From assembly GCF_003977685.1 (NCBI RefSeq), contig NZ_RYZH01000001.1, forward strand, positions 186,001 through 250,000: a stretch of 64,000 bases of DNA, written 5' to 3'. The first letter of the stretch is position 1. Each line of letters begins with the position of its first letter. Source of the stretch: Tautonia sociabilis (lineage in GTDB: Bacteria; Planctomycetota; Planctomycetia; Isosphaerales; Isosphaeraceae). The notes below the pieces were generated by a model, which searched no databases, had not been told where the DNA came from, and saw only the letters and a program-made list of their open reading frames with translations. Below are positions 54,433 to 57,577 of the stretch, in pieces. Position numbers and translations under genes: made by a program.

Positions 54433-55623
54433 ATGCGCGTCATCGTCATCGGCGGAGATGGCTACTGCGGCTGGGCCACCGCCCTGCACCTGGCCAATCG
54501 CGGGCACGAGGTGGCCATCCTCGACAACCTCATCCGCCGTCACTGGGACAACCAGCTCCGCATCGAGACCCTGACGCCCATCGCCCCCATCCAGCGCCGC
54601 CTGGAGCGCTGGGAGCAGCTCACCGGCAAACCCATCGAGCTGATGGTCGGCGACTGCTGCGACTATCCGTTCCTCTCCGAGTCGATCCGACGCTTCCAGC
54701 CCGAGGCGATCGTCCACTTCGGCGAGCAGCGCTCCGCCCCCTTCTCGATGATCAGCCGAGAGCGCGCCGTCGAGACCCAGGTCAACAACGTCGTTGGCAA
54801 CCTGAACATCCTCTTCGCCATGCGAGACATCGTGCCCGACTGCCACCTCGTCAAGCTCGGCACGATGGGCGAGTACGGCACGCCGAACATCGACATCGAG
54901 GAGGGGTACATCACCATCGAGCACAACGGCCGCAAGGACACGCTCCCCTATCCCAAGCAGCCGGGCTCGTTCTACCACCTGAGCAAGGTCCACGACACCC
55001 ACAACATCCACTTCGCCTGCCGGATCTGGGGCCTGCGGGCCACCGACCTCAATCAGGGCGTCGTCTACGGCGTGATCACCGAAGAGACGGAGATGGACGA
55101 GCTGCTCATCAACCGGCTCGACTACGACGGCGTCTTCGGCACCGCCTTGAATCGCTTTTGCATCCAGGCCGCCGTCGGCCACCCGCTGACCGTCTACGGC
55201 AAGGGGGGCCAGACCCGAGGCTTCCTCGACATCCGGGACACCGTCCGCTGCATCGAGATCGCCTGCAACAACCCCGCCGACCCCGGCGAGTTCCGCGTCT
55301 TCAACCAGTTCACCGAGCAATTCTCCGTCGGCCAGCTCGCCGAGAAGGTCAAGGAGGCCGGCGCCAAGATGGGCCTCGACGTGGCGATTGAACACGTCGA
55401 CAACCCCCGCGTCGAGCGCGAGGAGCACTACTACAACGCCAAGAACACCAAGCTCCTCGACCTCGGCCTCCAGCCCCACTATCTCTCCGACTCGCTGCTG
55501 GACTCGCTGCTGAACTTCGCCGTCCGATACCGCGACCGGGTGGACATGAAGGAGATCCTGCCGAAGGTCAGCTGGAAGAAGGGGGCCATCGAGGAGGCCG
55601 GCGCGCCCGTCGCCGTGAAGTGA
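54433..55623 (+). CDS. sqdB: UDP-sulfoquinovose synthase
   Basis: 396 aa. Makes UDP-6-sulfo-quinovose from UDP-glucose and sulfite, the first dedicated step to the sulfolipid SQDG. The opening [42 protein letters not shown] is SQD1/SqdB-like, as are [43 protein letters not shown] (the catalytic threonine at 144), [18 protein letters not shown] (Tyr181, Lys185) and [11 protein letters not shown]. No family residue appears lost and the length is normal. sqdX follows 227 bp downstream on the same strand. The organism shows no other sign of phototrophy. Confidence 0.93.
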
Positions 55624-55850
55624 CTCCCCGACACCAAGGCCGGGAGCCGATCGGATCGGCCCCGGCCGACCGCCGCCGTCGAAGCGGCCCTCCCCCGATT
55701 CCTCGACGGACACATCTCGGGGAGCCGAGACGCCTCGACGGCGGGGCCGAACCGGGATCTCCTGGTTCCGATCGCACTCCCCCCCCGGCGGCGCGGTGGC
55801 CTCATCGTGACGGCCGAGCCTCTCCCCCCCGCCTCTCGCCGACGACTCCC

Positions 55851-57050
55851 ATGCGCATCGCCCTGTTCACCGAGACGTTCCTGCCCAAGATCGACGGCAT
55901 CGTCACCCGACTGACGCACACGATCACCCACCTGAGGAGGGCGGGAGACGAGGTCCTGGTCGTCGCCCCGGCCGGCGCGCCGAGGCGCTTCGAGGGGGCC
56001 CGGGTCATCGGCGTGCCGGCGGTGCCGTTCGCGCTGTATCCGGAGCTGAAGCTGGCGATCACGGGCAAGAAGATCGGCCGTCGCCTGCTGAAGTTCGACC
56101 CGGAGATCGTCCACGTCGTCAACCCGGCCGTGCTCGGCGCCTGCGGCGTGGCGCACGCGGTCAAGCGCGACCGGCCGCTGGTGGCGTCGTACCATACGCA
56201 CGTGCCGAAATATTTGAAGCACTACAAGCTCGGTGCGCTCGAGGGGCTTTGCTGGAAGATCATCCGGTCGATGCACAACAAGGCCCGGCTGAATCTGTGC
56301 ACCTCGACGGCGATGATCGACGAGCTGAACGCCCGGGGCTTCCACAACCTCGCCCTCTGGCCTCGGGCCGTCGATACCGAGCTGTTCCGGCCCGGGTTGA
56401 AGTCGGAGGCCATGCGGGAGGAGCTTTCCGGCGGTCGCCCCGGGGCGCCGCTGCTGCTGTACGTCGGCCGGCTGGCGGCGGAGAAGGAGATCGACCGCAT
56501 CCGGACGGTCCTCCGGGCGATCCCGGAGGCCACCCTCGCCCTGGTCGGCGACGGCCCGGCCCGCGAGAAGCTGGAGAGGCACTTCGAGGGGACCCGGGCC
56601 CGGTTCGTCGGCTACATGAGGGGAGAGCGCCTCGCCTCCGCCTTCGCCTCGGCCGACGCTCTGGTGTTCCCCTCCCGCACGGAGACGCTGGGCCTGGTGC
56701 TGCTGGAGGCGATGGCCGCCGGCTGCCCCGTGATCGCCGCCCGCGCCGGCGGGATCACCGACATCGTCACCGATGGCGTCAACGGTTGCCTCTTCGACCC
56801 CGCCGATCCTGCCGGTCTGACCGTCGCCACCCGTCGGCTGCTCGACTCGGCCTCCCTCCGCGAGTCGCTGCACCGCAACGCCCGGATCGAGGCCGAGCGC
56901 TGGAGCTGGGCCGCCGCCACCGACGCCCTTCGCTCCTACTACCGCGCCGTGCTCGACGGGGGGCCCGTCGCTCCGACCTCCGCCGGCCATCCCGGCCCGG
57001 TCTCTCCCGATCCCGACTCGTTTCCCCGCCCCGCGGGGCTGGGCTCCTGA
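55851..57050 (+). CDS. sqdX: Sulfoquinovosyltransferase-like GT4 glycosyltransferase
   Basis: 399 aa from ATG 55851; the ribosome site is weak. GT-B fold of family GT4. The SqdX/SQD2-like parts are RIALFTETFLPKIDGIVTRLTHTITHLR at the start, SYHTHVPKYLKHYKLG (SYHTHVP-Y is characteristic), LWPRAVDTELFRPG, LLYVGRLAAEKEIDRI, ALVGDGPAREKLE and FPSRTETLGLVLLEAMAAGCPVIAARAGGITDI. In SQDG synthesis it transfers sulfoquinovose from the SqdB product to diacylglycerol at the membrane. Sequence alone does not exclude a related GT4 acceptor; adjacency to sqdB supports the assignment. Hydrophobic N-terminal part, no signal peptide. Confidence 0.82.
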   Translation: MRIALFTETFLPKIDGIVTRLTHTITHLRRAGDEVLVVAPAGAPRRFEGARVIGVPAVPFALYPELKLAITGKKIGRRLLKFDPEIVHVVNPAVLGACGVAHAVKRDRPLVASYHTHVPKYLKHYKLGALEGLCWKIIRSMHNKARLNLCTSTAMIDELNARGFHNLALWPRAVDTELFRPGLKSEAMREELSGGRPGAPLLLYVGRLAAEKEIDRIRTVLRAIPEATLALVGDGPAREKLERHFEGTRARFVGYMRGERLASAFASADALVFPSRTETLGLVLLEAMAAGCPVIAARAGGITDIVTDGVNGCLFDPADPAGLTVATRRLLDSASLRESLHRNARIEAERWSWAAATDALRSYYRAVLDGGPVAPTSAGHPGPVSPDPDSFPRPAGLGS

Positions 57051-57094
57051 CGCCGGAGGCCGGCGGGGCCTTCCCCATCCGAAGGATCGTCCTC

Positions 57095-57577
57095 ATGGAT
57101 CGTCCCCCCGACGTGGTCCGCTACGTCCCCTCCCGGGGGAAGTTCCTCGTCGTCGCCTTGGGATGCGCGGCGGTCGGGCTGTCCTGCCTGCTCAGGCTGG
57201 TGGTCGTCGGCGCCGGCCCCTGGGCGGCGATCGGCGCCGGGCTCTCCCTGCTCGGGGTGATCAACGGCCTCCAGTCGCTGGACCGCTCGCGCTGCCACAT
57301 CGAGCTTGGCCCCGAGGGCTTCGTCGAGCGATCCCCGCTGCGATGCCGTCGGATCCGATGGTCCGAGGTGGCCGAGTTCGCCCTGCTTCCGCTCCCTCGG
57401 CGCACCTGCTGGGTCGTCTACCGCCCGATCGTCCCAGACTCCCCCCGCATTCCCGGCTGGCTCCGGGCTTCCCGCCGCCGGCAGGTGGTCCTGGCCGACA
57501 CCTACGGCCTCGACGCCGCCGAGCTGGTCGACCTGCTCAACTCCTGGAGGATGCGGTTCGGTTCCCCGACGCCCTGA
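57095..57577 (+). CDS. Small membrane protein with PH-like domain, sqdX-linked
   Basis: 160 aa from ATG 57095, AAGGA 10 nt upstream, 44 bp after the sqdX stop. Two hydrophobic segments (FLVVALGCAAVGLSCLLRLVVV and WAAIGAGLSLLGVINGL, residues about 16-55) precede a small beta-rich part with HIELGPEGFVERSPLRCRRIRWSEVAEFAL, which resembles bacterial PH-like domains found after two transmembrane helices. The function is unknown; the close spacing suggests co-transcription with sqdX and possibly a role in sulfolipid membranes. Confidence 0.7.
   Translation: MDRPPDVVRYVPSRGKFLVVALGCAAVGLSCLLRLVVVGAGPWAAIGAGLSLLGVINGLQSLDRSRCHIELGPEGFVERSPLRCRRIRWSEVAEFALLPLPRRTCWVVYRPIVPDSPRIPGWLRASRRRQVVLADTYGLDAAELVDLLNSWRMRFGSPTP

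Follow-up and report, generated by a model that had tools for sequence, protein, structure and literature searches.

Does a planctomycete genus make the sulfolipid SQDG, and from where would it have obtained the genes? The question is raised by two neighboring genes, sqdB and sqdX, in a 64,000-nucleotide stretch of the Tautonia sociabilis genome (hereafter the window), for which a first-pass annotation had predicted SQDG. Both of the family assignments behind that prediction hold, and it is very likely that the genus carries an sqdB–sqdX pair of cyanobacterial type that would make SQDG, the pair having probably been gained horizontally from a cyanobacterium-like donor. In the proposed pathway, SqdB would use UDP-glucose and sulfite to form UDP-sulfoquinovose, from which SqdX would transfer the sulfoquinovose onto diacylglycerol, giving SQDG. 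This anionic membrane lipid without phosphorus could stand in for phosphatidylglycerol and may have a role under phosphate limitation. We infer the enzyme activities, the acceptor, and the lipid product from sequence.

Identification of SqdB and SqdX

The first gene, sqdB (54433..55623, forward strand), starts with ATG. Its product, predicted to act as a UDP-sulfoquinovose synthase, is a complete member of the SQD1/SqdB family, 396 amino acids in length. In a phmmer comparison with the Arabidopsis SQD1 chain, the protein matched over residues 2–386 of 396 with an E-value of 4.2e-201 (671 bits), and 283 of 385 residues were identical (73.5%). Such a match, together with a gene order kept in all four genomes of the genus, excludes chance. 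The first-pass annotation had described a complete sqdB with Thr144, Tyr181, and Lys185 and two conserved blocks, and its coordinates and motifs were right. The three residues, which we take to be the catalytic Thr, Tyr, and Lys, correspond in the alignment to positions 145, 182, and 186 of the 1qrr chain (Arabidopsis SQD1) and are invariant in all six aligned sequences, comprising that of the window and five SqdB-like proteins; both conserved blocks, [11 protein letters not shown] and GTMGEYG, occur as well.

Against the NF041015 profile, the window SqdB scores 480 bits, below the curated cutoff of 575. All nine proteins tried fell below this value, among them those of Nostoc (479), Gloeomargaritales (475), and Alicyclobacillus (475) as well as Arabidopsis SQD1 (485), and one of 14 control genomes passed it. 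Because the cutoff also excludes the solved SQD1, we did not treat it as defining, and the shortfall says little against membership. An even sample of 88 genomes across the cyanobacterial phylum gave an SqdB match at E 1e-60 in 34 and none in 54; 29 of the 34 matches are 75–82% identical to the window SqdB, and the other five, which are absent from all trees described here, are 45–48% identical.

The second gene (55851..57050, forward strand; 399 amino acids) encodes an SqdX of the cyanobacterial type, that is, a GT4 sulfoquinovosyltransferase with predicted SQDG synthase activity, as judged by identity, tree position, and invariant columns. It had been called SqdX-like from two motifs, SYHTHVPKY and GRLAAEKE, both of which are present, and the call is borne out by 59–65% identity to the glycosyltransferase adjoining sqdB in cyanobacteria. 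PF13439 and PF00534 both score above their cutoffs, and the EX7E motif of GT4 enzymes can be seen in ETLGLVLLE.

To place these genes in context we used 80 named sqdB loci, the best 80 of 585 confirmed stretches, a selection that favors close relatives; their phyla were taken from titles, and 43 read as cyanobacterial. Among these best 80 of 585, 29 of the 43 cyanobacterial loci have an SqdX-like ORF after sqdB in the same orientation, with 60–64% identity to the window SqdX. Thirteen of the 14 cyanobacterial loci lacking an adjoining SqdX were searched further, and in 12 a match of 58–63% identity was found elsewhere in the genome. The 88-genome set provided 30 sqdB loci with flanks of ~1.5 kb, 22 of which had an SqdX-like ORF (59–65% identity).

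According to the first-pass annotation, a glycosyltransferase placed clearly outside SqdX by phylogeny would have refuted the prediction; the enzyme is instead placed with SqdX of cyanobacteria. One side of a branch in the SqdX tree (support 92/87, just short of starred) contains 48 cyanobacterial rows together with the four rows of the genus. The cyanobacterial label in this tree denotes a gene adjoining sqdB, the tree being without experimentally characterized SqdX or plant SQD2. The genus rows lie nearest to three early-branching cyanobacterial rows (92/88), Gloeomargarita-like rows being the nearest with weak support (90/54). A wider starred clade of 59 rows comprises the genus, cyanobacteria, and seven Acidobacteriota rows (98/96), and ten planctomycete GT4 rows form a separate clade (100/100). 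The tree, for which a genus paralogue served as outgroup, kept 90 of 115 rows after removal of near-copies, one-gene repeats, rows shorter than 330 amino acids, and six planctomycete GT4 sequences; long-branch warnings were given for L118, L188, L180, L185, and L089. In the 48 cyanobacterial rows, 150 columns reach an invariance of at least 97%, and the window SqdX keeps 140 of them. Forty of the 150 have a residue that never occurs in the ten planctomycete GT4 rows, and of these the window SqdX keeps 35.

Locus layout and conservation in the genus

Gaps of 227 bp between sqdB and sqdX and of 44 bp between sqdX and a third gene, the latter as first annotated, separate three genes on the same strand. 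They are followed by an aldose 1-epimerase-like gene (57727..58728, forward strand; PF01263), a family-wide neighbor found in 35 of 45 family genomes and not part of the pathway, and by a peptidase gene. This order, sqdB–sqdX–PH-like–epimerase–peptidase, is kept in all four genus genomes. The spacing between sqdB and sqdX is 149–227 bp in three of them and 1,911 bp in G431, so that co-transcription of the two genes is not assured. In G431 (L116), two tandem related ORFs of ~280 amino acids each lie between sqdB and sqdX; judged by eye, they are presumably DUF4058-like.

Comparison of the window with three congeners gave dN/dS values of 0.05–0.11 for sqdB and 0.06–0.18 for sqdX, low enough to indicate that both genes are maintained under purifying selection. 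The epimerase and peptidase genes were compared in the same way, with approximate starts. Upstream of sqdB, no clear conserved block was seen by eye besides the start region. A thioredoxin-like gene (by eye) lies at 52789–53898, between a response regulator gene and sqdB, and had no match on the stretches around the pair from three congeners. The G+C content of the stretches around the pair (window, L115, L116, and L117) spans 61–72% within this one genus.

Distribution and origin of the pair

SqdB-like matches at E 1e-60 occurred in seven of 392 evenly drawn Planctomycetota genomes and, besides the window's own, were 42–54% identical. Within the family, SqdB is present in 4/4 genus genomes and 0/41 others; the sqdB–sqdX–PH-like order, for which the first pass had suggested a survey of planctomycete genomes, is kept in these same four genomes. 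A GT4 match at E 1e-70 was obtained in 44 of 397 genomes of the class, the four genus orthologues being 86–100% identical and the rest 38–44%. L088, a MAG titled Singulisphaera sp. GP187 (locus 51% GC, genome 2.9 Mb), has an SqdB and an SqdX nearly the same as those of the Roseiflexaceae MAG L091, and its label or bin is probably wrong.

In a first SqdB tree, which kept 80 of 94 rows after near-copies and a partial row were dropped, the genus belongs to a starred 39-row clade (100/97) with open branching order, whose other members are Arabidopsis SQD1 and rows from cyanobacteria (31), Acidobacteriota (two), and Thermodesulfobacteriota (one). A second, wider tree kept 81 of 127 rows, near-copies, distant long branches, and rows outside the chosen loci having been removed, and has the genus branching as sister to 41 of its 42 cyanobacterial rows (58/35); neither grouping tested on it was rejected (p-AU 0.343 and 0.289). 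Since a cyanobacterial clade of its own, without the genus, was not rejected for either protein (SqdX p-AU 0.293, SqdB p-AU 0.343), and given the 58/35 support, the trees do not place the donor inside the cyanobacteria. The distribution makes a horizontal origin likely, the ancestor of the genus having received the pair from a cyanobacterium-like donor. The gain was not recent, as the GC3 of the pair (0.945 for sqdB, 0.927 for sqdX) is like that of three neighboring genes (0.907–0.943). Ten stretches from other family genomes all contain the epimerase gene, and in none are the peptidase, PH-like, or sqdX genes beside it, so no simple empty insertion site was seen; one of the ten has a weak, partial match to sqdB (30% identity).

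Does the pair predict SQDG?

The high similarity of the pair to cyanobacterial proteins would also be explained if both genes were cyanobacterial contamination introduced during binning or assembly. There is hardly any chance of this, because both genes have native codon use and evolve under purifying selection. The pair holds the same position in all four genus genomes, in one case on a contig of 8.67 Mb, and this shared context together with the neighbor-like GC3 rules out cyanobacterial contamination. In a reading that keeps SqdB as the source of UDP-sulfoquinovose, the glycosyltransferase would pass the sugar to something other than diacylglycerol, perhaps a surface polysaccharide, a glycoprotein, or another lipid. 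The acceptor of a GT4 enzyme is not readable from its sequence, and archaeal N-glycans use sulfoquinovose. A rice relative of SQD2 has been linked to flavonoid glycosylation (PMC5498572). Genomes with SqdB and no detected SqdX likewise suggest that the sugar may serve other uses. We nevertheless consider this reading unlikely, because the enzyme is placed in the tree with SqdX of cyanobacteria, retains almost all columns that are invariant there, and stands in the order seen in the majority of the cyanobacterial loci (29 of 43, among the best 80 of 585).

Twelve genomes among the best 80 of 585 loci (11 Acidobacteriota and one Thermodesulfobacteriota) have SqdB without SqdX on the locus; 11 of them gave no SqdX-like match anywhere at E 1e-50, most being MAGs that may be incomplete. 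Because SqdB occurs without SqdX, sqdB alone would not predict SQDG, and the pair is the better predictor. Ten of the Acidobacteriota (L055, L057, L058, L060, L063, L064, L065, L068, L069, and L072), with SqdB 68–72% identical and no SqdX-like match at E 1e-50, may direct their UDP-sulfoquinovose elsewhere, or their MAGs may be incomplete.

SQDG is the preferred reading of the product, in a host in which the pair had been thought unexpected for want of any sign of phototrophy. The searches agree on the host as regards reaction centres: these families were found in 0/1 genome for PF00124 and 0/4 genomes for PF00223, the control Synechococcus elongatus being positive both times. With maintained genes and no such families found, SQDG would be expected to occur as a membrane lipid. 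The pathway itself does not require reaction centres.

The third gene

The gene following sqdX (57095..57577, forward strand) encodes a 160-amino-acid protein of the genus with two predicted transmembrane segments and no Pfam or NCBIfam match. Its structural model, built on a four-sequence alignment (pLDDT 67.2, pTM 0.53), has helices at residues 14–38 and 42–61, strands, and an end helix. Searched against the PDB, the model had no match at E 0.001 or better, and seven of the 50 weak matches listed had PH or pleckstrin titles, so that a PH-like fold is plausible.

It had been proposed as a new accessory part, and it could be a dedicated one, perhaps anchoring SqdX in the membrane or binding lipid as its partner, which would add to the SQDG reading. 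It follows sqdX on the same strand at 44–83 bp in 4/4 genus genomes and shares with the pair the restriction to the genus within the family, its orthologues being found in the four genus genomes of 45 family genomes. The proposal fares poorly on the remaining evidence. On the flanks of sqdB loci outside the genus (best 80 of 585), the gene was not found at E 1e-3 with a query that does recover the orthologues in three congeners. Its dN/dS of 0.31–0.58 exceeds that of each of the other four genes compared (sqdB, sqdX, the epimerase, and the peptidase) in all three comparisons. The conserved block extends past it into the epimerase and peptidase genes, and two of the four genus genomes have a weak second match elsewhere. 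We regard a dedicated role as distinctly improbable. A fuller scenario, in which a Gloeomargarita-like, early-branching donor supplied the pair, SQDG is a bulk phosphorus-free anionic lipid in all species, and its synthesis is coupled to a PH-like protein binding or positioning SQDG, seems to us just as doubtful.

Occurrence in other bacteria and significance

The first-pass description of SQDG as mainly known from phototrophs and some rhizobia is too narrow. Among the best 80 of 585 loci, an SqdX-like ORF accompanies sqdB in Bacillota (11/12), Acidobacteriota (4/15), and Chloroflexota (3/7). Both sqd1 and sqdX occur in Bacillus coahuilensis, whose three strains are reported to contain sulfolipids, with data not shown there (PMC4744853); the pair outside phototrophs is therefore already known, and its presence in one planctomycete genus looks new within the literature covered. 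PMC4796936 notes sqdB in environmental heterotrophs. Two Acidobacteriota MAGs, L053 and L056 (G780 and G781), have an sqdB–sqdX pair of the cyanobacterial clade plus a second SqdX-like gene, 50–51% identical to that of the window.

No description of the sqdB–sqdX pair in planctomycetes was found in a literature coverage from which subscription journals are mostly absent. As far as the accessible text of each goes, a paper on ornithine lipids names SQDG in its introduction (PMC12493201), and a co-mention of sqdB and planctomycetes concerns cyanobacterial MAGs (PMC10410210). Two SqdB/SQD1 clades are distinguished in PMC8227023. One of them includes green plants and green non-sulfur bacteria along with some of the cyanobacteria, and the window SqdB fits this clade by its position in the first SqdB tree.

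If SQDG were confirmed in a planctomycete, the list of phyla producing it would grow by one, and environmental SQDG would have to be taken with caution as a marker of phototrophs. The function of the lipid apart from photosynthesis could then also be studied in a host lacking reaction centres.

Comparison with known systems

The closest arrangement is that of Synechococcus elongatus PCC 7942, whose sqdB (0578) and sqdX (0579) have neighboring locus tags and are described as a probable operon in PMC7401256. The window pair has the same two enzyme families in the usual order and strand. Cyanobacterial relatives, the S. elongatus sequences not being among those compared, are 75–82% (29 of 34) identical to the window SqdB and 58–65% to the window SqdX. 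In contrast to the cyanobacterial pair, that of the window sits in a host with no reaction-centre family found (PF00124 0/1, PF00223 0/4) and among different flanking genes.

Alphaproteobacterial systems (Sinorhizobium; sqdBDC of Rhodobacter) share the first enzyme family, with SqdB 45–47% identical to that of the window, and two such loci among the best 80 of 585 (L010 and L011) had no SqdX match within their flanks. Bacillus coahuilensis resembles the window in being a non-phototrophic host with both genes, and sulfolipids have been reported in its membranes (PMC4744853). The SqdB and SqdX of Bacillota form clades of their own, apart from those of the window, and among the best 80 of 585 loci, which do not include B. 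coahuilensis, they are 63–69% and 45–52% identical, respectively. In plants the partner enzyme of SQD1 is SQD2; Arabidopsis SQD1 itself belongs to the same family as the window SqdB, with the presumed catalytic residues aligned and 73.5% identity.
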